Source: Planctomycetaceae bacterium (GTDB lineage: Bacteria; Planctomycetota; UBA1135; GCA-002686595). From it: a stretch of 10,557 nt of DNA. The notes under the pieces are model-generated. The model was not told where the DNA came from, did not search any database, and was given only the letters and a program-made list of their open reading frames with translations. The stretch is from positions 1-10,557 of the forward strand of contig JABWBL010000071.1 of assembly GCA_013360535.1 (NCBI GenBank), read 5' to 3'. Shown here piece by piece: positions 655 through 10,430 of this stretch. Both the position numbers and the translations under genes were made by a program. Each line of letters opens with the position of its first letter. Positions within the stretch are counted from its first letter, which is position 1.

Positions 655-833
655 GCGGACCCTAGCCCGACCCCGCCCATTCCACAACCCGCCCTCCACG
701 ATTTCGATCGCTCGAGCACGTCAGCGCAGCAGGCGGGTTGGCCCGGGAACGCGCGAAGTAGGATCAGGGCACCGCTCGACCTTGGAAGAACTCGCGCTCC
801 TGACCGTCCCATCGGCGTGTTCGAGAGGATGCC

Positions 834-2174
834 TTGCCCGACCGAAGACACTGGCTGGCCCTGTTCGTCACGATCGTGGTGATCGTCGCGTGCTTGCGTG
901 GACTCCTCGACGCGCCGGAGGACTCGAGCCCCGACGTCGGTGCCGCGCGGACTGAGGCCGAGCCGGAAGGGTACGTTCGGGAGCCCCGCGCGGAATCGCT
1001 CGCGCTGCGAGCCGAACCTTCGGGTGCGCGGGACGACGGAAGTCCCGGTCCGGCCGCGGACATCGAGGTTGCGTCGCAGGGAGCGACGCGGGAGTCGATC
1101 CGTGGCCGACTGGAGTTTCTGGACGGTTCGCCCGTTCCGCTGCAACGCATCGAAGCGACTCTGGGCAACGCAGGACCCGACGCCGTGCCGCGTTCAGCGA
1201 CCACCGGCCTCGACGGCAGCTTCGCGCTCGACGGCCTGCCCGCGGGACTGCACAAGCTGCGCTTGGACGGTGCCGCGAGCCTGGTGCCGGCTGACGCGGC
1301 CCAAGTGGCCCCGAAGGACGGGCTCGTGTTGCGAGTCGAGGGATTTGGCCTGCTCGTCAAGACACGGGATGCCTCCGGTGCGATCGTGCCGGGGGCCAGC
1401 CTGCAGCTCACCGGGCCCCAGCGTCGCAGCTCCGCGCATTCCAACTCGCAGGGCGTGGCGGCGTTCACGGTTTCGCAGGCGACGACCGGCGAGGTCGAAG
1501 CGTGGAAGGCCACCCTGCGAGGATCGCTCCGTCGGCTCAGCCTGCCGGATGAGGCGCACCTGATCGTCCGCGAGCTCGTGCTTCTTCCGCCGACGACGAC
1601 CGGTCGCCTCGACGTCATCGTCCGCAGCCGCTCCGGAAGTCGCCTCAACGACTTCTCCGTCCGGTTGCTCGACTCGAACTCGAACGCCCAAGTGCTCTTC
1701 CTGCGCGCGAAGGACGCCGACTCGGACGGCACGTTCGGCAACGTGCCCGTCGGCACCTTCCGCGCAAGCCTCGCGCCCGCCTTCGTGGGTGCGCCCGAGC
1801 TCTACGCAAGGAATCCGACGCGCAAGACCGTGACCATCACCGAAGGTGCGACGGCGACGCTGGAGTTCGAGGTCGAGCTCTGCGGCCGCGTGCTCCTGCG
1901 CATCGAGAGACCCGAGGCGACTCCCGAGCAACACGCGACCCTCTCGATCCGCGACCGCGACGGCCACACCCGCTCGCTCAGCTGTCGCGTCCCCGGCCCC
2001 GACGACACCGTCGAGGTCACCAGCCAAGTCCCGCTCAACTCCACCTTCGTCGTCGACGACCACTTGCCCGACGGCCGCTACACGATCCTCGGGCACCTGC
2101 CCGACGGCACCCAATCCGACACGACGATCCTCATCACTTCCGGCCTCATCACCCAAGCCACGCTCCGCTTCTGA
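834..2174 (+). CDS. Anchored carboxypeptidase-regulatory-like (beta-sandwich repeat) protein
   Basis: The product has 446 residues. The start is TTG at 834, preceded by GAGAGG with a 5-base gap. The frame closes at a TGA at 801 and offers no other upstream start; the ATG at 829 is out of frame. Residues 8-19 form a hydrophobic segment ending IVAC (Cys20), so the protein is either a lipoprotein or held by an N-terminal membrane anchor. An acidic linker (about 22-85) follows. About four beta-rich segments come next: 89-148, 170-230, 257-320 and 342-446. The first has the pattern TTGLDGSFALDGLPAG, typical of CarboxypepD_reg/Cna-B-like folds, and the third has a related DGTFGNVPVGTF stretch. No catalytic motif is seen, so an extracytoplasmic structural or ligand-binding role is inferred. 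It stands alone, with no gene in its strand within about 500 bases downstream. Confidence 0.8.
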   Translation: MPDRRHWLALFVTIVVIVACLRGLLDAPEDSSPDVGAARTEAEPEGYVREPRAESLALRAEPSGARDDGSPGPAADIEVASQGATRESIRGRLEFLDGSPVPLQRIEATLGNAGPDAVPRSATTGLDGSFALDGLPAGLHKLRLDGAASLVPADAAQVAPKDGLVLRVEGFGLLVKTRDASGAIVPGASLQLTGPQRRSSAHSNSQGVAAFTVSQATTGEVEAWKATLRGSLRRLSLPDEAHLIVRELVLLPPTTTGRLDVIVRSRSGSRLNDFSVRLLDSNSNAQVLFLRAKDADSDGTFGNVPVGTFRASLAPAFVGAPELYARNPTRKTVTITEGATATLEFEVELCGRVLLRIERPEATPEQHATLSIRDRDGHTRSLSCRVPGPDDTVEVTSQVPLNSTFVVDDHLPDGRYTILGHLPDGTQSDTTILITSGLITQATLRF

Positions 2175-2680
2175 CGCGTCGACCTGCGGCGTCGTGCGCG
2201 AAAATCGCTGAAATCCCCGTTCGTTCTGCTCGACTTCAGTTTCCGAGCGTCGGTTGATTTCGAGCTGCGGAAGGTCCGTGCCGTTTCTGCACAACCCGCC
2301 GTTTCGAAGCCTGGAGAGGTCAGTGGGCCCAATCGAGGACAGTTCGAACGGATAGGCCATCCAGGCGGCCAGGAATCGGCTCGGCCGTATCCGTTGCGCG
2401 TGGTGAGGGCGCGCAGGTGCAAACCCGCCATCACCGGAGAGATTCCGAGGCCCGGCACGTGCGTTGCCATCCCTCCAGCGTTCCTTTCAGTTCCACGAGC
2501 GCCCTCGCGAAGCCCGGTTCTCGAGGAGGTTGATCGAGGCCGGCGAGGCTGATGCGCGCTGGTCGAGAGCGCCTCCGAGCGACCCAGCTTCTCTCGGGCG
2601 CCGCGGCGCTCGACGGAAGTTCTCCTCCCCAACTCTCGCTCGCGCCAACGCGAGTCAAGGCCCCCGTTCTGCCCCCACAC
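2175..2680. other. Gene-free region upstream of the helicase operon
   Basis: About 500 bases with no frame that looks coding in either direction. The sampled line at 2221-2280 is about 57% GC, below the genes to the left. A GAGGAGG sequence at 2523-2529 looks like a ribosome site but has no usable start behind it in the helicase frame, because a TGA lies at 2531-2533. I found no recognisable transposase, integrase, tRNA or repeat. The helicase promoter presumably lies here, but I cannot place it. Confidence 0.5.
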
Positions 2681-5302
2681 ATGGATACGAACAACCGAAG
2701 ATTCGAACTCTCACAACCTGCGCGACTCACGTCGATGCTCGCGGAGAAACACCACCGCCACGTGCTGAACGCGGCAATCGAACTGCTCGATGTCCAGAGG
2801 GACTCCAACCCGGGAACGACAGAGCTCGTTCGCGCCTTGCTCCAGCGATTCGTCTTCGGACGCGAGCTCGCGATCTCCAGAGCCCCGGGCCGAAGCGTGA
2901 ACTCCAGAACGGGTGACCTGTTCTACGTGCGCTCGCTTCCGCTCGACGAACCGGGCCTGCGCCTTGAGGTCCAGAGTGAACTCGCCCAGGGTCGCGATGC
3001 GTTCTCGCCGGGCAGGGTCCACTTCCGACTGGTGTGGATCGAGTTCGAAGGAGCGAGGCCGCCGCGGGAGAACGAACGGACCGTGGCCGGTCTGCTGGCG
3101 GAAGACGGCCCGGGCATCCCCCAATCCGAAGGTGGGTCCTTCAGCACGCTGCCGAGCTGGCGCCACGACGTGCCGGCGCAGTGGGAGCGATGGAGCGAAC
3201 TGCTGGAGTGTCTGGAGGAACTTGCGCGGCTCAAGACGCTCCAGCTGCCAGCCTCGGTGCTCTCGGTCGACGATGGTGGCGGCAGTGTCCGCATCGCTCT
3301 CGCGGCAAGTCCCGCGATGCACGAGCGCGAGCTCCTTTCCTCAGGAGATCTGGAACTGATCTGGGGGCTGGGCATGAACGCACGAGTCAGTCTCGGCACG
3401 CACAACGACGACGACGACGACACTGAGCTTTCGCTCGACGTCTCCAGAGGCAGCAAGGTACCTCCATTCCCCGCGGGCACGGAGGTCACGCTGGCCACAC
3501 GCCCGGACCTCACGGTCCTCCAACGCCAGCGTGCGGCGCTCGGGCAACTGCGCGACGCCAAGATCCAGAACCCCCATCTCGCCACAGCACTGATCAATCC
3601 TGCCGAGGCCCGCGAGCTGCCGCCGGAGGTGTGGCCCGCCATCCCCATCGTTGATGCGGAAAAACTCCGTCCAGCTCAGCGCTCGGCCGTGGAAGCCGCG
3701 CTGTCAGCGCGCGAGGTCACTTTCATCTGGGGGCCTCCGGGCACTGGCAAGACCGAAGTGATCCGCGCCATCAGCCAGAGCGCAGTCGCCGCCGGACTCC
3801 GCGTGCTGGTCGTGTCCCAGGCGAACGCAGCCGTCGACAACGCGGTGTCGCGCGTGAAGCAGCTGAAGGGGATGCGGCCCCTGCGCCTCGCGCAAAAGGA
3901 CATCCAACGCACGGACGAGAACGTGAAGGACGTGCTCGACAAGGTCGCCGTGGGCAGCTTCCTCCGTCGGATTGAGGCGCTCACGGACGTCCCCGAGGAA
4001 CTTGCTCATGCCAAGAGCGCGGTTCAGGCTTTCCTGGATGCAGCGCCGAAGGACGGCGAGGAGCACGAGAAACGTGCGATCAACGAACTCTGGGAGCCCT
4101 ATCGACGCAGCGTGAACCTGATCGGCTGCACCTGCTCACAAGCCGCTCGCCTCGACGAGCGCTGCGGCATCTCGGCGGTCGATCTCGTGATCATCGACGA
4201 AGTCAGCAAGGCGACGTTGGTCGAAATGCTCCCGGCGCTGGTCCGTGGCACGAAAGTGGTGCTCGTCGGCGATCACTGCCAGCTCCCCCCAGTCTTCCGC
4301 GACGACGAGCAGTCGTTGCGCCAGACGCTGGAGCAGGCCGCAGGCAGCCTCGACCCCGATCGCCTGGCAGCAGCCCGCGAGCTCGTCGACGAACCCTATT
4401 TCAAGAACTGCAAGGAACAGGCAGAAGGAGTTGACGGAGCGCTGGCGACGCTGAACGAGCAGCACCGCATGCACCCGTTCATCCGTGAGATGGTCTCGCG
4501 CTTCTACGAGAACGGCCTGGAGGATGCTCCTCACGTGACGTTGCGGTCGCGCGCCCTGCCGTTTGGGCCGCAGATCCTGAGGAGAGACGTCGCCGCGGAT
4601 ACCGGAACGCTGTGGATCGATACGGGTGGCTCGCACAAGGAAGATCGCTGCGGCACCTCCCGCCAGAATCCCGGTGAAGCCCGTGTTCTCGTCGACCTCG
4701 TCCGGGACCTTGCCAGTCAGGTCGCGGGGGTGACGAAGCTCCCGTACTTGAAGCTGAGGCTCGGCGAACGCTACGCCGGCAAGCTCGCCAGCGAACTCCT
4801 CAAGCCTGTCGGGGGGACCAAGCTCCCCGAGGGCCTTCAATGGACGTACTGGCTGGATGGCCACCCGGTCCGTCCCGACACGCGCTGCGAGTCCGACAGC
4901 CTGCTGGTGCTTGGGCCCGCGCTCCCCGTCGCATGCATCACCTTCTACAAGGCGCAGAAAGAGCTGCTGCGCCGCAAGTTGGACGAGCTCGCAGCAGCAG
5001 GCGGACTGATCGGCCTGAATTGTCGGGTCGACACCGTCGACAGCTACCAGGGTTCCGAGGCCGAGTTCGTCGTGCTGAGCCTCGTGCGGACGGGCTTCCG
5101 GTCCGACTCGCCGTTCGTCACCGACTTCCGGCGCGTGAACGTCGCCATGTCCCGTGCGCGCCGGTTCCTCTGCATCGTCGGATGCCGCGCGAGCTTCTCC
5201 AAAGCGCTGGTCCAGCTCCCCTCGCACTCCGCGCCAGTTCCCGTTTACGGTTCGATCCTCGAAACCCTGCAGAAGCGCAACTCCATCCTGCGCTGCGCCT
5301 GA
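2681..5302 (+). CDS. SF1 helicase, DNA2/NAM7 (Upf1-like) family, AAA domain
   Basis: The product has 873 residues from the ATG at 2681. All superfamily 1B motifs are present in order: a Q-like LRPAQRSAV before the Walker A GPPGTGKT (351-358), Walker B IIDE (Asp506/Glu507), motif III GDHCQLPP (530-537), NEQHRMHP (592-599), DSYQGSEAE (787-795) and NVAMSRAR (820-827). An intact ATP-driven DNA or RNA helicase/translocase is therefore expected. The first 350 residues match no domain I recognise and carry a run of five Asp (243-247). No nuclease motif was seen. The frame is open back to an ATG at 2552, but those 43 extra residues look untranslated, and neither ATG has a good ribosome site. GC is visibly lower than in the flanking genes, which hints at transfer. 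It is followed after 14 bases by the small gene at 5317, so the two are probably one operon. Substrate and role (repair, RNA or defence) cannot be read from sequence. Confidence 0.9.
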   Translation: MDTNNRRFELSQPARLTSMLAEKHHRHVLNAAIELLDVQRDSNPGTTELVRALLQRFVFGRELAISRAPGRSVNSRTGDLFYVRSLPLDEPGLRLEVQSELAQGRDAFSPGRVHFRLVWIEFEGARPPRENERTVAGLLAEDGPGIPQSEGGSFSTLPSWRHDVPAQWERWSELLECLEELARLKTLQLPASVLSVDDGGGSVRIALAASPAMHERELLSSGDLELIWGLGMNARVSLGTHNDDDDDTELSLDVSRGSKVPPFPAGTEVTLATRPDLTVLQRQRAALGQLRDAKIQNPHLATALINPAEARELPPEVWPAIPIVDAEKLRPAQRSAVEAALSAREVTFIWGPPGTGKTEVIRAISQSAVAAGLRVLVVSQANAAVDNAVSRVKQLKGMRPLRLAQKDIQRTDENVKDVLDKVAVGSFLRRIEALTDVPEELAHAKSAVQAFLDAAPKDGEEHEKRAINELWEPYRRSVNLIGCTCSQAARLDERCGISAVDLVIIDEVSKATLVEMLPALVRGTKVVLVGDHCQLPPVFRDDEQSLRQTLEQAAGSLDPDRLAAARELVDEPYFKNCKEQAEGVDGALATLNEQHRMHPFIREMVSRFYENGLEDAPHVTLRSRALPFGPQILRRDVAADTGTLWIDTGGSHKEDRCGTSRQNPGEARVLVDLVRDLASQVAGVTKLPYLKLRLGERYAGKLASELLKPVGGTKLPEGLQWTYWLDGHPVRPDTRCESDSLLVLGPALPVACITFYKAQKELLRRKLDELAAAGGLIGLNCRVDTVDSYQGSEAEFVVLSLVRTGFRSDSPFVTDFRRVNVAMSRARRFLCIVGCRASFSKALVQLPSHSAPVPVYGSILETLQKRNSILRCA

Positions 5303-5304
5303 AC

Positions 5305-5310
5305 AAGGAG
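5305..5310 (+). promoter_or_regulatory. Shine-Dalgarno site of the small gene behind the helicase
   Basis: AAGGAG lies 6 bases before the ATG at 5317, inside the 14-base gap after the helicase stop. It fixes the start of the small gene and supports its being a translated operon partner. Confidence 0.75.
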
Positions 5311-5316
5311 ATTCCC

Positions 5317-5742
5317 ATGCAACGCAAGCTCAAACCCGTGCTCGAGTACTCCATTCAGGATCCCCTGCTCGCGATCGAGACGCTCGTTCTTCGGCTCGTC
5401 GAACTAGGGGTGTGCCCCAGCCTCGACGATGTCGTGGCGCGCTGCGCGGGGCTCGGTTCGAACCTGTTCCTCGAGTCCGTGCGCGAGCGCTTGCGCAACC
5501 GGACCGCGATCGAGCACGACGAGGCGGGTCTCGTGTTGACGCCTCTCGGCGCGACGATGCTGGCCGAGGGATTCCATCCAGAACGTGCGGTCTCGCGCAC
5601 GCTCGACCGTTGCCGGAGAGCGTCAAGGTTGAAGTCGGATGAGCTTGTGGAGCTGGATCCGGAAGAGGTACGAGCGCAACTTCGCGAAGACGGCGTCGAC
5701 TTCCGGGGCCGGGTGCTGCGCGGCTCGCTCTACCTCGCCTGA
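5317..5742 (+). CDS. Hypothetical 141-residue protein, possible winged helix, helicase operon partner
   Basis: I do not recognise this family. The start is set by AAGGAG 6 bases upstream; a longer in-frame opening that runs back inside the helicase gene is a shadow. Residues 16-31 and 36-60 look like three amphipathic helices. They are followed by a possible beta-hairpin wing at 62-76 and the phrase LTPLGATMLAEG (75-86). The order helix-helix-helix-wing and the 'LTPLG' wording are common in winged-helix DNA-binding proteins, but this is inference from pattern only. An Arg-rich helix (95-105) and an acidic stretch (108-120) follow. There is no signal peptide or membrane segment, so it is cytoplasmic. 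It sits 14 bases behind the helicase and just before a strong terminator-like hairpin, so the pair forms a closed two-gene unit. A DNA-binding adaptor or regulator for the helicase is the simplest guess. Confidence 0.75.
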   Translation: MQRKLKPVLEYSIQDPLLAIETLVLRLVELGVCPSLDDVVARCAGLGSNLFLESVRERLRNRTAIEHDEAGLVLTPLGATMLAEGFHPERAVSRTLDRCRRASRLKSDELVELDPEEVRAQLREDGVDFRGRVLRGSLYLA

Positions 5743-5756
5743 GTCCTCGATCACGG

Positions 5757-5799
5757 ACGCGGCGCCGCTGCTCGCGATTGCGAGCAGCGGCGCCGGCGT
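5757..5799. terminator. Very strong hairpin between convergent operons (bidirectional terminator candidate)
   Basis: Bases 5761-5775 pair perfectly with 5780-5794 (15 bp) around a GATT loop. C5760 pairs with G5795, and with one bulged base the stem extends to about 5757-5799. It lies 15 bases after the stop of the plus-strand helicase operon and about 40 bases after the stop of the minus-strand cysC operon. Placement and symmetry suggest it ends transcription from both sides. Neither strand has a clear U-tract, so it may act as an RNA 3'-end protector instead. Confidence 0.65.
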
Positions 5800-5837
5800 T
5801 GGTGCGAGCGTGGACTTCGGGTACGCAACGGTCGCCG

Positions 5838-6401
5838 CTAGCCCCGAACCTTGGCGGCGGAGCCCTTGGGGACGAGGCCCTGGGACTCGAGGTAGGCGAT
5901 GACCTTGGCGGCGGATTCCTCGATGTCCTCGCGGTCGGTGAAGACGGTGACTTCGGGGTGGAGCGGTTCTTCGTAGGGGTCGGAGACGCCGGTGAACTGC
6001 TTGAGGACGCCGGCGCGGGCCTTGCGGTAGAGGCCCTTGGTGTCGCGCTCCTCGACGACGGCGAGCGGGGCGTTGACGAAGATCTCGACGAAGGGCGCCT
6101 GGGACTTGGAGCGGATCTCGTCGCGGATCGGGCGGTAGGGCGAGATCGCGGCGGTGATCGCGATGACGCCGTTGCGCGCGAGCAGGTTGGCGACGAAGCC
6201 GATGCGGCGGATGTTGGTGTCGCGGTCTTCCTTGGAGAAACCGAGGCCCTTGGAGAGGTTCTCGCGCACCTCGTCGCCGTCGAGCACCTCGACCTTGAGG
6301 CCGAAGTCGCGCAGCAGCGGCGCGACGAACTCCGCGAGCGTCGACTTGCCGGCGCCCGAGAGGCCGGTGAACCACAGGATGCAGCCCTTGTTGGTGCTCA
6401 T
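5838..6401 (-). CDS. cysC: Adenylyl-sulfate (APS) kinase
   Basis: The product has 187 residues, close to the usual 180-200. APS kinase phosphorylates the 3'-OH of adenylyl sulfate with ATP to give PAPS, the sulfate donor for sulfotransferases and reductive assimilation. Visible signatures are the P-loop GLSGAGKS (13-20), LDGD (40-43), [13 protein letters not shown] (54-66) for APS and nucleotide binding, and ISPYR (86-90) with the conserved Ser87. Residues 117-134 ([10 protein letters not shown] and onward) and SDPYEEP follow, as expected in the family. It looks intact and cytoplasmic. The start is the ATG at 6401, 11 bases after the stop of the sulfatase-like gene, with AGGGG about 9 bases upstream. 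The frame stays open into the upstream gene, but that part is a shadow. No ATP sulfurylase, sulfotransferase or PAPS reductase is in the window. It is last in a three-gene operon. Confidence 0.95.
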
Positions 6402-6412
6402 GGCGTGCGCCC

Positions 6413-7369
6413 CTAGCGGATCTTGCCCTCGAGGTACGGCACCTCGAAGCACTTGTCGTGCATGATCGGACCGTGGCCGAAGTAGCCGCCTTCGCCGAAC
6501 AATTCGCCGTGGTCGGCGGTGACGACGATGTGCGTGTTCTTCGGGCACAGGTCGTAGAGCTTCTCGAACACCTGATCGAGGTAACGCACGGTGTCGACCT
6601 GGCGCTCGTGCAGCTGCGCCATCTTGTCGTCGTCGAAGAAGGCCGTGTCGTCCTTGACGAGGTTGCCCTGCTCGTCGACGGCCTCGTTCATCTTCTTGAA
6701 GACGCCGTTGACGCCCGAGATGCGCGGCCACATCGAGCTGTCCTCGTCGGGCTTGGCGTACGGGTAGTGCGTCTCGCCGACGTTGAGCATGTAGAAGCTC
6801 GGCCGCTCGGTCGTGAAGGTCAGCGTGGGCAGCATCGACGCCATGTCGTTGTGCTTGTCCATCAGCTGGAAGCTGTCGAAGTCGCGGTTGATGCCCGTGC
6901 GCGGGTTGAGCACCGGCAGCGAGACGCGCGCGTTCGTGCGGTAGCCGAGCGTGTTGCGCAGGAAGCCGGGGAACCACAAGGCCGGCACCATCTTCGCGAA
7001 GTCGACGCCCTTGGCGCCCAGGCGCGCGTTGTAGTTGAAGAAGTCCTCCTTGTAGTACTCCGACGCGTACACGTTCGGCGGCGTCGTGTGCGGCAGGAGG
7101 CCGGTGAGCAGGTTGTAGTGCGAGGGCGCGGTCCAGCTCGCGTAGCTGTAGCGCTTCTCGACCTTGCCACCCGAGAGCTTGGGGATGATCTTCGGCGCCG
7201 CGCGCATGAACGAGTCGTAGCGGCAGCTGTCGAGCGTGATGATGATGAAGTTGTTCTCCGCCTGCGGCTGCGGGTGCGGCGCGAGGCCGCCGAGCGGGCG
7301 CGGCATCGGACGCGGTCCGGTCGGCGGAGGCGAAGCGGGCTTCTTCTTCAGGAAGTCGAACAGTCCCAT
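6413..7369 (-). CDS. Sulfatase-like hydrolase of the alkaline phosphatase superfamily, with Thr at the nucleophile site
   Basis: The product has 318 residues. The fold is recognised by the metal-site strand [14 protein letters not shown] (41-54), the nucleophile loop before LLTG (87-90), NVGETHYPY (197-205) and [14 protein letters not shown] (282-295) with GHG (298-300). Sulfatases carry C/S-x-P-S-R at the loop; here it reads T-A-P-S-H (80-84), so there is no residue to become formylglycine. Thr nucleophiles are known in related phosphotransferases such as EptA and LtaS, so phosphate-ester or phosphotransfer chemistry is at least as likely as sulfate hydrolysis. There is no signal peptide. 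A Pro-rich linker (11-38) follows an N-terminal GLFDFLKKK that could be a membrane-surface helix. The C-terminus ends soon after the last metal motif, shorter than most sulfatases. The ATG at 7369 has no clear ribosome site. The gene sits between the ribbon-helix-helix gene (48-base gap) and cysC (11-base gap). Confidence 0.85.
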
Positions 7370-7417
7370 GGCGTTCAGGCGGGGTTGGCGTTGGTGGAAA
7401 GGGCTCGGGGTGCCCGG

Positions 7418-7636
7418 CTACAGGTACCCGAGGTTCTTGAGCTTGCGCTTGACGTCCTCGAGCTCGGCCTCGGAGTAGCTCTCCGCAGCCTGCTTGGGGT
7501 CGTGCTCCCCCATCACGTCGCGCAGCACGTACACGATGAAGTCGGTCGGCGAGCTGAAGCCCGATCCGTCGACCACCTGCTGGATCTTGCGATACAGCGG
7601 GCGCGGGATCTTGACGGTGACCTTGGGCTCACGCAC
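7418..7636 (-). CDS. Ribbon-helix-helix (CopG-like) protein with LGYL tail
   Basis: The product has 72 residues. Its layout is that of a ribbon-helix-helix DNA-binding domain: beta-strand KVTVKIP (5-11), helix [13 protein letters not shown] (13-24), the turn SGF, then helix [15 protein letters not shown] (29-42). Such proteins dimerise through the strand and insert it in the DNA major groove at repeated short half-sites. The charged C-terminal helix (52-65) ends in LKNLGYL. The chosen start is GTG at 7636, which places the ribbon at the normal distance from the N-terminus. No ribosome site is visible and a downstream start would cut the ribbon. It is first in the operon with the sulfatase-like gene and cysC, and lies beside phased half-sites at 7716-7740. 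Local autoregulation is therefore plausible. A toxin-free, non-antitoxin role is likely, as no toxin gene adjoins. Confidence 0.85.
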
Positions 7637-7715
7637 GGGGGAGACGCTCGGGCTTGGGGGGAGGTAAGGTTGAGCGTTCCGGAGCGGGAATCGGCCGCCG
7701 GGAACGGGAAAACGT

Positions 7716-7740
7716 ACTCCAATCGGAGTGTGATTGGAGT
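7716..7740. promoter_or_regulatory. Inverted and phased half-sites, candidate operator
   Basis: ACTCCAATC (7716-7724) is a perfect 9-bp inverted repeat of GATTGGAGT (7732-7740) with a 7-base spacer. The core GGAGT also occurs at 7725-7729 and 7736-7740, 11 bp apart, with its inverse ACTCC at 7716-7720. Three half-sites on one helical turn spacing are the kind of target that ribbon-helix-helix dimers bind cooperatively. The site lies about 80-105 bases before the ribbon-helix-helix gene start. It could equally be read as an RNA hairpin with two competing stems. Confidence 0.5.
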
Positions 7741-7908
7741 GTCGAGCCTCGCGGCGGGCCTCGGACCGCGCCCGGCCGTCCGTCCCAAGCCCTTGCAGGT
7801 CAAAGGTTTGCGGCGCAAGGCCGCGGCGCCATCCAGAGCGTCACCCGCGCCGGCCGCACGCGCGCCGTAAGCTCTGCCCAAGCCCCCGGGAGTCCTGTCC
7901 CAGCCTCG

Positions 7909-7923
7909 CCCGCTTCAGGCGGG
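7909..7923 (+). promoter_or_regulatory. Short leader hairpin before the first TPR-like lipoprotein
   Basis: CCCGC (7909-7913) pairs with GCGGG (7919-7923) around TTCAG, ending 16 bases before the ATG at 7940. A similar stem precedes the paralogous gene at 8529, so it may affect translation. On its own it would be unremarkable. Confidence 0.3.
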
Positions 7924-7939
7924 TACGTTTCTCACCACC

Positions 7940-8440
7940 ATGATGCGTCCGCACCTGCTCTTCGCCCTCAGCCTCGCGCTGCTCGCCCCTTCGGTCACCT
8001 CCTGCGGGGGTGACGCCACGCCCGCCGAGAACGTCACGGCCGGCTCGACCGCGCTCGGCAAGAGCGACTGGAAGGCCGCCAAGGAGAGCTTCGAGAAGGC
8101 GCTCGTGAAGCTGCCCGCGAGCGACCCCGCCTTCAAGCGCGCGAAGCTCGGCCAGATCGAGGCCCTGATCCAGCTCGAGCCCGACCGGGCCAAGACCGAG
8201 TTCCTCGCCTACGCGGGGGCCGCGGACACGTCGGCCGAGTCGAAGGACTGGCGCAACGTGATGAGCAAGCTGACGGCCAAGGCCAAGTTCAAGGAAGCGA
8301 TCGCGATCCTCGAGGCCGGCCTCAAGCAGCACCCCGGCGACGCGGACATCAAGGCCATGGGCGACGCCATCAAGGTCGCCGCGGAGAACGCCGGCGACGC
8401 CGACGCGCTCGGCAGCCTCGCCGGCCTCGGCTACTTGTAG
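7940..8440 (+). CDS. TPR-like lipoprotein, first of a tandem paralogous pair
   Basis: The product has 166 residues. A hydrophobic signal (6-19) ends in the lipobox VTSC with Cys22, followed by a short Gly/Asp/Thr linker, so export and membrane anchoring are expected. The mature part is all-helical. Residues 31-57, with the pattern A-L-x-K-S-D-W-x-A-A-x-x-S-F-E-x-A-L, look like one TPR helix pair. DPAFKRAKLGQIEALIQL (62-79) and a second pair at 116-133 (FKEAIAILEAGLKQHPGD) follow. TPR helices usually serve as protein-binding scaffolds; no catalytic site is seen. It ends LAGLGYL. The start is ATG at 7940 or the adjoining ATG at 7943; neither has a close ribosome site. The next gene is its paralogue. 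It is divergent from the ribbon-helix-helix operon and could share regulation with it. Confidence 0.8.
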   Translation: MMRPHLLFALSLALLAPSVTSCGGDATPAENVTAGSTALGKSDWKAAKESFEKALVKLPASDPAFKRAKLGQIEALIQLEPDRAKTEFLAYAGAADTSAESKDWRNVMSKLTAKAKFKEAIAILEAGLKQHPGDADIKAMGDAIKVAAENAGDADALGSLAGLGYL

Positions 8441-8450
8441 CTCTTGCGGC

Positions 8451-8465
8451 TCCGGGCCTTCCGGA
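8451..8465 (+). terminator. Weak hairpin after the first TPR-like lipoprotein
   Basis: TCCGG (8451-8455) pairs with CCGGA (8461-8465) around GCCTT, 10 bases after the stop at 8440. The stem is only 5 bp and no T-run follows, so termination here is uncertain. Confidence 0.2.
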
Positions 8466-8501
8466 TAGGCTCGGAATCACCCCTGAGCGTCCTTTCGCCA
8501 G

Positions 8502-8515
8502 CCCGTTGCAACGGG
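8502..8515 (+). promoter_or_regulatory. 14-bp perfect palindrome overlapping the ribosome site of the second lipoprotein
   Basis: CCCGTTGCAACGGG is its own reverse complement and ends 13 bases before the ATG at 8529. As DNA it could be a repressor operator. As RNA it gives a 5-bp stem with a TGCA loop that would pair part of the GGGAG likely to serve as ribosome site. Either way it is placed to control the 8529 gene. Confidence 0.45.
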
Positions 8516-8528
8516 AGCGAGAGTCTGG

Positions 8529-9086
8529 ATGTTCGTTCGAGCGAAGGCCGCGGCCCGAGTCGTCGTGTTGGTCCTGCCGGGGTTGGTGGCCTGCACGGGT
8601 GCTGATCCGGCGCTCGAGGTCGGGCGCGCGTCGCAGGCGCTCGGCCGCGGGGCCGTGCACGAGGCGCTGGAGCGCTACGAGAGCGCGCTCGGCGCCTTGC
8701 CACAGACCGATCCGGCTTGGAAGCGTGCGAAGCTCGGTCGCGTCGAGGCCCTGATTTTGCTCGATCGCGAGGACTTCGAACGCGCCCTGCGGCAGGCCAA
8801 GGAAGGCGAGTCTCCGACGGCACCGCGGCGTGGGGAGCTCGCGTTCCTCGAGTTCGCGGGCGCCGATCCGAGCGCGGCGAGTTCGAAGGAGTGGCGGAGC
8901 GTGCTGGGCAAGCTCACGCAGAGCGCGCTGTTCGACTCGGCGGTGGCGGTGCTCGCCAAGGGGCTCGAAGTCCATGCCGGGGACGCGGAACTGGCCCGCT
9001 GCGGCGACGCGATCCGGGACGCGGCGGCGAAAGCCGGGGCCAAAGGCGCGTTGGGGGCGCTCGCGGGACTGGGGTACGTCGATTGA
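8529..9086 (+). CDS. TPR-like lipoprotein, second of a tandem paralogous pair
   Basis: The product has 185 residues. An n-region with Arg4/Lys6/Arg10 and a hydrophobic core lead to the lipobox LVAC, Cys22, the same position as in the neighbour at 7940. The two mature parts align along their length: DPAWKRAKLGRVEALILL (61-78) against DPAFKRAKLGQIEALIQL, then the SSKEWRSVLGKLT and LEVHAGDAELARCGDAIRDA regions, and the end LGALAGLGYVD. Relative to its neighbour it has about 20 extra residues near 85-105. The helices look TPR-like and no catalytic motif is visible, so an envelope scaffold or adaptor is inferred. The ATG at 8529 has GAGAG about 5 bases upstream and GGGAG about 11 bases upstream. 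The 88-base gap to the first gene, with its own palindrome, suggests the copies may be separately controlled. The family is otherwise unrecognised. Confidence 0.8.
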   Translation: MFVRAKAAARVVVLVLPGLVACTGADPALEVGRASQALGRGAVHEALERYESALGALPQTDPAWKRAKLGRVEALILLDREDFERALRQAKEGESPTAPRRGELAFLEFAGADPSAASSKEWRSVLGKLTQSALFDSAVAVLAKGLEVHAGDAELARCGDAIRDAAAKAGAKGALGALAGLGYVD

Positions 9087-9149: not shown

Positions 9150-9626
9150 ATGCTCCGGCGCATGAGCGAGACCACCCAGCCTGCGGAGAAGGTGCGCATT
9201 CCCGGACTTCTGCTCGCCGCTTGGGGCGTGCTGTCGGTCCTGTGGGGCCTGGTGATGACCGCCATCTCGATCTTCGGCATGCCGCTCCAGCAGCAGATCC
9301 TCGAGTCCGCCGCGGAGGACGGCCGCCAGCTGCCGCCGATCGCCCAGCAGTTCTTCAACAGCCCGCTGCTCGGCGCGGTCGGCGCCATCGGGATCCTCCT
9401 CGAGCTCGCCAAGGTCGGACTGTCCGTCTACGTGGCGTGGGGCGGCTGGCAGATGACCAAGCTGCGCCACCACGGAGCCTGCATGGGCGCCGCCATCGTC
9501 GCGCTGCTCCCCTGCACGGGCGCCGGCTGCTGCTGTGTCTTCGGCCTGCCGTTCGCGATCTGGGCCCTGATGGTCCTCAACCGCGCCGACGTGCGTGCGT
9601 CCTTCGGCCTGTCGAATTCGAACTGA
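9150..9626 (+). CDS. Small polytopic membrane protein with a CCC cluster
   Basis: The product has 158 residues. Three to four membrane segments are visible: 18-44, 72-98, 109-121 and 127-145. The last two are joined by the motif PCTGAGCCC (121-129), with five Cys in all at 111, 122 and 127-129. The end of the last segment (FGLPFAIWALMVLNRADV) resembles small planctomycetal integral membrane proteins of unknown function known to me only as hypothetical. The soluble loop 45-70 is Gln-rich. The ATG at 9150 is preceded by GGAG 13 bases away; ATG at 9162 (beginning MSETTQ) is an equally good start. The protein's last residues and stop codon lie inside a 30-bp tandem repeat. It follows the lipoprotein pair in the same direction after 63 bases, so co-transcription is possible but not shown. 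Confidence 0.75.
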   Translation: MLRRMSETTQPAEKVRIPGLLLAAWGVLSVLWGLVMTAISIFGMPLQQQILESAAEDGRQLPPIAQQFFNSPLLGAVGAIGILLELAKVGLSVYVAWGGWQMTKLRHHGACMGAAIVALLPCTGAGCCCVFGLPFAIWALMVLNRADVRASFGLSNSN

Positions 9627-9701
9627 CGCGGGGTCCAACGCGTCGAACTCGAACGGACGCGGGTCCAACGCGTCGGGCGCTCGAACGGACGCGCGTCAGT
9701 T
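9612..9701. repeat. 30-bp tandem repeat and inverted repeat covering two convergent stop codons
   Basis: A unit of about 30 bases (TCGAAYTCGAAC, then GACGCGGGTCCAACGCG) occurs at 9612-9642 and 9643-9672, with a partial third copy to about 9697. Each full copy holds the stem GACGCG/CGCGTC: 9625-9630 with 9639-9644, and 9656-9661 with 9669-9674. The partial copy has the palindrome GACGCGCGTC at 9688-9697. Spanning all of it, AACTGACGCG (9621-9630) is a perfect inverse of CGCGTCAGTT (9692-9701). The TGA of the plus gene and the TGA of the minus gene both sit inside this 10-bp arm. A shared bidirectional transcription end is the likely role. Confidence 0.75.
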
Positions 9702-10430
9702 GTCGCCCTGCAGCAGGTTGCCGAGCAGGCCACCTTGCTCCTTGCGACCTCCGGCGGCGGCCATCAGGCGGCCGGCGAGGCGCGAGAACGGGAGCGTCTG
9801 CAGCCACACGCGTCCGGGGCCGCGCAGCACGGCGAAGAACAGGCCCTCGCCGCCGAACAGAAAGCTCTTCACGCCGCGCACCATCTGGATGTCGTAGTCG
9901 ACGCCGGCTTCCATCGCGACGATGCAGCCCGTGTCGACGCGCAGGGTCTCGCCCTGGCCGAGCGTGCGCTCGACGACCGAGCCCGAGGCGTGCAGGAAGG
10001 CCGTGCCGCGGCCCTCGATGCGCTGCAGCATGAAGCCCTCGCCGCCGAACAGGCCGGCGCCGAAGCGGCGCGTGAACGCGACCGAGATCTGCGCATCGGT
10101 GGTCGAGCACAGGTAGGCGTCGCGCTGGCAGAGCACCGTCCCGCGCGACAGGTCGATCGGCAGCACCTTGCCGGGGTAGGGCGCGGCGAACGCCACCGTC
10201 GCGGGCGCGCCGCCCTGGTTGGTGAACGTGGTGACGAAGAAGCTCTCGCCGCCGATCATGCGCTTGAGGCCCGACAGCACGCCGCCGCCGGTCGAGGTCT
10301 CCATCTCGATGCCGTTCTCCATCCACACGAACGCGCCGGGCTCGGCCCGCACCGCGTCGCGCGGCGCGAGCCGCACCTGCACGTACTGGAAATCGTCGCC
10401 GTCGATCGAATAGTCGAGCTGGGTGTTCAT
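9696..10430 (-). CDS. AIM24 / TIGR00266 family protein
   Basis: The product has 244 residues, the full length for the family. Diagnostic features are the N-terminal [20 protein letters not shown] (14-33), [10 protein letters not shown] (36-45), [18 protein letters not shown] (48-65) and the thrice-repeated Gly-rich GGE-x-F/L pattern at 60, 129 and 193 ([24 protein letters not shown]). The fold is a beta-rich TRAP-like (AIM24) barrel. The fungal namesake is mitochondrial, and the bacterial members have no settled function. There is no signal peptide or membrane segment. A Gly/Leu-rich tail (221-244) follows. The ATG at 10430 overlaps the TGA of the upstream fragment (ATGA), which may explain the missing ribosome site through translational coupling. 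A longer opening to 10529 is unlikely, as it is out of character with the family. Confidence 0.9.

Follow-up and report, generated by a model that had tools for sequence, protein, structure and literature searches.

A UPF1-like helicase gene paired with a stand-alone winged-helix gene in a Planctomycetaceae genome: a probable minimal relative of the Mokosh and CoCoNuT helicase modules

Does a helicase gene followed closely by a small gene in a planctomycete genome mark a new defence system, or a variant of one that has already been described? The question is raised by positions 2,681 to 5,742 of a 10,557-base contig of Planctomycetaceae bacterium (JABWBL010000071.1, assembly GCA_013360535.1), the whole of which is called the window in this study. 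An earlier note, made from the letters alone, had seen there a defence-type superfamily 1 (SF1) helicase with an unassignable N-terminal region, a small unrecognised protein as its fixed partner, and the possible mark of a new system. With moderate confidence, we read this cassette as a minimal member of the branch in which a UPF1-like helicase is joined by a winged-helix protein, as in MkoA-MkoB of Mokosh and CnuH-CnuE of CoCoNuT, with its effector unrecognised; neither protein displayed a kinase, PLD, HEPN or other effector domain in the libraries used. A role in defence is likely, judging by this kinship and by the neighbourhoods of the relatives. An operonic pair of UPF1-like helicase and winged-helix protein is already published as CnuH-CnuE of the Type II/III CoCoNuTs (PMC11090510), and Mokosh is another instance, so the cassette is a variant rather than a wholly new system.

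The family assignment of the helicase is secure. The protein harbors the AAA_11 and AAA_12 Pfam domains, its SF1 motifs are intact, and its top fold match in the PDB is the human Upf1 core (E 1.6e-35); the RecA pair, the motifs and the fold together place it in the UPF1-like SF1B class. Among the PADLOC defence models, its nearest is Mokosh MkoA, matched over residues 242-867 at E 1.2e-98, which agrees with the defence type proposed for it. Profile comparison aligned residues 167-838 with MkoA-type proteins at a probability of 100, and the N-terminal part alone (residues 118-320) resembles the linker that joins kinase to helicase in these proteins (hhalign probability 95.3, E 2.4e-8). The region of about 350 residues that had been called unassignable is therefore partly accounted for, from about residue 118 onwards, by this post-kinase linker, while residues 1-160 are still modelled poorly (block predicted local distance difference test, pLDDT, 70 or less) and have no match among the 25 Pfam families shown; no kinase was found on the helicase among these families either. 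Helices at 413-477 of the model (block pLDDT 64-87), which were examined against the large helical insertion after Walker A of CoCoNuT CnuH, occupy a stretch that is shorter than in the MkoA-type rows.

In a tree of 42 rows, the window helicase forms a clade with P0007, P0008 and P0010 (100/100), which is nested in a 19-row set (99/98) that also includes the helicases of loci L053, L047 and L048. The MkoA rows with a kinase fall outside this set. Helicases of the IGHMBP2, DNA2 and SEN1 types make up a separate set of ten rows, among them L050, where no winged-helix neighbour was seen, and every row with such a neighbour lies outside the IGHMBP2/DNA2/SEN1 set. By sequence comparison, the branch of the window helicase is beside, not within, the kinase-bearing MkoA rows, although several long branches leave the deeper order unsure and the tree omits L002 and L023.

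The small protein, previously unrecognised, is securely predicted to adopt a winged-helix fold, as the best of five AlphaFold2 models reached a pLDDT of 92.6, with the winged helix at about residues 15-86 followed by a short alpha/beta tail (87-141). No Pfam family was found for its 141 residues, and its sole PADLOC match is a weak one to MkoB (E 0.013). A hidden Markov model (HMM) of six other MkoB-like N-termini, with the window sequence excluded, was run on 2185 open reading frames (ORFs) and gave two untrained matches at E<0.01, namely the small ORF of the window (E 0.0014) and an ORF overlapping the end of an Actinophytocola helicase (E 4.2e-5). Compared as profiles, the small family and the six-sequence set gave a hhalign P of 5e-5 and a probability of 68%. 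These comparisons suggest a probable, if modest, relationship between the small protein and the MkoB N-terminal domain. The small family counts seven members in the protein database, including the window's own, five of them of 141 residues and two of 149; this database shows predicted proteins of similar length only, and broken copies would be invisible in it.

Two other matches of the small protein, both at E of about 0.004, were rejected as homologues: that in genome G067 contained a stop, and that in genome G319 sits within a 1060-residue frame (L026 5675-8854; small-family HMM E 0.00089 to 0.05), which may be a chance match or a true solo relative. Neither fetched stretch, that of G319 (8.9 kb) or that of G067, yielded a convincing match to the helicase HMM. 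We take both cases as a caution on the specificity of the small-family search.

The helicase and the small gene were detected in the same two of the 154 genomes of the order and lie side by side in both, which bears out the fixed small partner that the earlier note had proposed. In the second genome, G054, of the same family and another genus, a 42%-identical helicase is again directly followed by a small ORF, of 149 residues, which an HMM of the five 141-residue proteins, not trained on it, picked out of 1081 ORFs at E 1.9e-9; the flanks of the pair differ between the two genomes. Neither gene was detected in the other six of seven same-genus genomes (87-92% complete). Since the small protein of G054 fails by its own PADLOC and HMM scores, it is tied to MkoB only through the window family.

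The helicase searches led to 12 other loci, a tally that leaves out L020 and L021, which were reached only through MkoB, and one phage match. A winged-helix neighbour is supported by an HMM at seven of them, by PADLOC MkoB in L003, L022, L023, L047 and L052, by the small-family HMM in L005, and in L053, where PADLOC gave nothing, by the six-sequence HMM alone. It is weak or read by eye at three (L002, L048 and L051), and none was seen at L049 and L050. The partner stands alone in L005 and in L052, a Streptococcus salivarius plasmid in which it lies 5' of the helicase, and is longer in L002, L003, L022, L047, L048, L051 and L053. Among the additional parts of these partners are PLD in L022 and L020, a Ppx/GppA-like region in L048, and, in L002 and L003, RNxxxH motifs that by eye hint at HEPN. 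Helicase relatives adjoin Qat and dGTPase genes (L053), AbiU (L048), and integrase and transposase genes (L051), which are neighbourhoods typical of defence islands, and the Qat- and AbiU-adjacent relatives belong to the 19-row tree set of the window.

Several of these loci carry arrangements of their own. In L002 (7500-13865) and L003 (7231-13562), a separate upstream kinase-like gene is followed by an MkoA-like helicase and a winged-helix-type protein with RNxxxH; in L002 the winged-helix match is weak and a stop interrupts the helicase frame. The annotated partner start in L051 (7682-8560) removes half of the winged helix, which can be read when the frame is allowed to begin further upstream, within the end of the helicase. 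Two genomes from different families of the phylum share a five-gene operon (L047 1990-11764 and L048 5285-15905) of an MkoA-like helicase, a partner with a winged-helix-like start, a protein of 285 or 371 residues, an AAA protein and a small protein. In the L048 copy, which adjoins AbiU, the partner end is Ppx/GppA-like, the AAA protein ClpB-like and the small protein an NrdG/viperin-like radical SAM protein. This operon is possibly an undescribed defence system.

Which of the known systems comes closest? With Mokosh type I the cassette shares a strong MkoA profile match, a weak match to the MkoB N-terminus and the same gene order. It differs in that its helicase carries no kinase and lies outside the kinase-bearing MkoA rows, and its partner carries no PLD, whereas the L022 helicase has a kinase and the L020 and L022 partners have PLD. 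A protein kinase domain on MkoA is what we take to be a feature of Mokosh type I, and plain Mokosh type I was rejected on the absence of both kinase and PLD nuclease. The likeness to CnuH-CnuE of CoCoNuT consists of a UPF1-like SF1 helicase and an operonic winged-helix partner, in the order helicase to winged helix (PMC11090510); the partner agrees by fold and position. In the CnuE types described in PMC11090510, either the winged helix or the helicase has a nuclease fused to it, CnuE bearing HEPN or PLD or a Vsr being fused to CnuH, and McrBC-type GTPase genes are present, whereas none of these was recognised in the window. No McrB/McrC-type gene (CnuB/CnuC) was found among the nine window proteins scanned, a search confined to the 10,557-base contig, and plain CoCoNuT was rejected on the absence of nuclease and McrBC. 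The S. salivarius plasmid pIKMIN-B501 (L052 5081-7007) likewise has a separate small winged-helix protein (148 residues; MkoB E 9.7e-5) and a homologous helicase, but there the winged-helix gene is the first of the two and runs into the helicase gene, whose product at 498 residues is much shorter. The ORFs that accompany and precede this winged-helix gene look coiled-coil and membrane or glycine-zipper-like by eye. The PLuB helicase model (NF040671) recognises a homologous core in the window helicase (130.5 bits), far under its cut-off of 999 bits. No account of an effector-less winged-helix partner was met in the open literature searched, in which the phrase itself was not targeted, and this is not proof of absence.

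UPF1-like helicases habitually move 5' to 3'. In the cassette, the helicase would load onto foreign RNA or single-stranded DNA and translocate using ATP, and the 141-residue protein would bind the helicase and couple its activity to an outcome. In the relatives, that outcome is supplied by a nuclease joined to the winged helix; here it would have to come either from a partner acting in trans or from the helicase, which would strip or block phage nucleic acid. The analysis itself establishes the two genes, the kinship of the helicase, the predicted fold, the recurrence of the pair and the variability of its location, while we infer complex formation, substrate, defence role and the replacement of the effector alike. 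For the published UPF1-like helicase modules, licensing of a nuclease is the role proposed for the helicase. A bolder version, in which the two genes are a complete, nuclease-free immune system whose adaptor-gated helicase strips or stalls phage RNA or replication intermediates, appears doubtful to us.

A number of observations weigh against our reading of the cassette as a minimal Mokosh/CoCoNuT-type pair. No effector was recognised, whereas the published logic is one of nuclease coupling. The MkoB link weakens when only the four firmer MkoB sequences are used (window ORF E 0.027, hhalign probability 44%), and the six-sequence HMM scores the small protein of G054 at E 4.5, PADLOC giving it no hit. 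When the search is turned round, the G319 frame obtains better scores from the small-family HMM (E 0.00089 and 0.05 in two runs) than the MkoB partners do (E 0.021-0.053 and 0.087-0.52, respectively). MarR, PadR and other winged helices match the small-protein model equally well, and no Foldseek match of that model reached E 0.001 or better. As to the surroundings, no known defence gene was recognised beside the cassette within the contig, the flanks of the pair in G054 are presumably housekeeping genes, and no close copy was found on a phage, plasmid or viral contig. No relative of the small protein or helicase was confirmed in viral contigs; one phage record matched with a coverage of 13%.

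Some of these points invite other explanations. An effector may be hidden as a divergent nuclease or toxin in helicase residues 1-160 or in the tail of the small protein, since the former are modelled at low confidence with no match among the Pfam families shown and the latter was barely probed by the fold search. We nevertheless consider this unlikely, because inspection of the conserved columns by eye turned up none of the residue patterns of known nucleases and residues 118-320 align with the MkoA-type linker and not with an effector. About equally improbable is a housekeeping or repair helicase with its own transcriptional regulator, the winged helix binding the promoter of the operon. Helicases of the UPF1/IGHMBP2 kind are often active in the metabolism of RNA or DNA, the winged helix is similar to that of MarR/PadR-type regulators, and the link to MkoB is modest; but MkoB-type partners have a domain like it fused to PLD, the helicase branch falls outside the IGHMBP2-type set, and presence in two of 154 genomes at a variable site is unlike that of housekeeping genes.

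The missing kinase and PLD domains might, relative to Mokosh type I, also signify a decayed system on its way out. This we hold to be very improbable, as the helicase motifs are intact, all seven members of the small family are predicted at full length (broken copies would go unlisted), and the same two-gene form occurs in another genus at 42% helicase identity. The separation of the helicase branch from the kinase-bearing MkoA rows implies, moreover, that any loss of the kinase was not recent.

The layout of the cassette and its site is given in the table.

Table. Features of the helicase and winged-helix cassette and of its site, in window coordinates
Feature	Position	Strand	Details and basis
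UPF1-like SF1B helicase gene	2681..5302	+	873 aa; Walker A 351-358, DE 506-507; Pfam, PADLOC, fold, motifs
Helicase N-terminal region, residues 1-330	2681..3670	+	hhalign, Pfam, block pLDDT
Spacer of 14 nt with ribosome site AAGGAG at 5305-5310	5303..5316	+	sequence
Stand-alone winged-helix partner, 141 aa (predicted fold)	5317..5742	+	AlphaFold2, winged-helix matches, MkoB N-terminal HMM
Perfect hairpin with a 16-bp stem, flanked by the small gene and cysC, which converge	5760..5795		arms 5760-5775/5780-5795
Variable site: 834-2174 gene and cassette	694..5837		blastn/tblastn against L042; ORF call

The two genes, their spacing and the ribosome site, six bases 5' of the small-gene ATG, were read correctly in the earlier note. 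An in-frame longer helicase start at 2552 is unneeded, because P0006 (98% identical, 872 residues) begins at the methionine of the window helicase ATG. The hairpin after the small gene is also present, with a stem of 16 bp instead of the 15 bp reported and complementary throughout, and it is probably a bidirectional terminator. Upstream, the stretch of about 500 bases (2175-2680) is gene-free in the sense that it holds no supported gene, although mechanical ORFs run across it. The GC contrast proved smaller than stated: lines of 58-62% are unrepresentative, as the whole helicase gene has 65.6% GC and the small gene 65.5%, compared with 69.4% in the 834-2171 gene, 67.9% in cysC and 64.6% in the neighbouring sulfatase, which lies below the cassette and is present in six of the seven same-genus genomes. 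The cassette is still lower than most of the sampled genome, since 14 unmasked contigs of the same assembly (of 20 sampled) have 68.5-70.8% GC and only 2 of 61 frames, by crude stop-to-stop calls on the sampled contigs, fall under 65.6%. Low GC was set aside as a weak argument for foreign origin, given the range of the nearby genes, and a comparison of GC at third codon positions was dropped due to unreliable crude frame calls.

The locus itself is variable, as had been supposed. In G004, the nearest same-genus genome, the flanking stretches 5838-8439 and 528-693 align at 93% and 84%, and the 5.1 kb between them is replaced by 0.9 kb (875 bp). Alignment on both sides was obtained in one of the five fetched relatives, the contigs of L044 and L045 ending in or shortly past cysC. 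The site of the cassette may be a cargo hot spot. No convincing pair of flanking direct repeats was found around the cassette, the window holds no tRNA as an integration marker, and Rfam gave no match in the window or L042 at gathering thresholds. In L042, the fetched stretch of G004, an unrelated 251-residue ORF (9455-10207) without Pfam or PADLOC matches lies at the cassette's site. The conserved 166-bp stretch at 528-693, which borders the variable site on its far side, includes a 16-bp hairpin (550-583) and has no Rfam match. Elsewhere in the window, two tandem TPR-like paralogues (7940-9086) both correspond to a single place in four of five same-genus relatives.

What draws attention in this cassette is how it might act with no recognised effector. 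A recurring, sporadic pair in which no nuclease can be recognised separates the helicase and adaptor step from killing, and provides a small two-protein object for direct study of the sensing and coupling step common to Mokosh and the CoCoNuTs. If the doubtful bolder version were true, the nuclease-free pair would represent a minimal core to which nucleases and kinases were added in the Mokosh and CoCoNuT modules.

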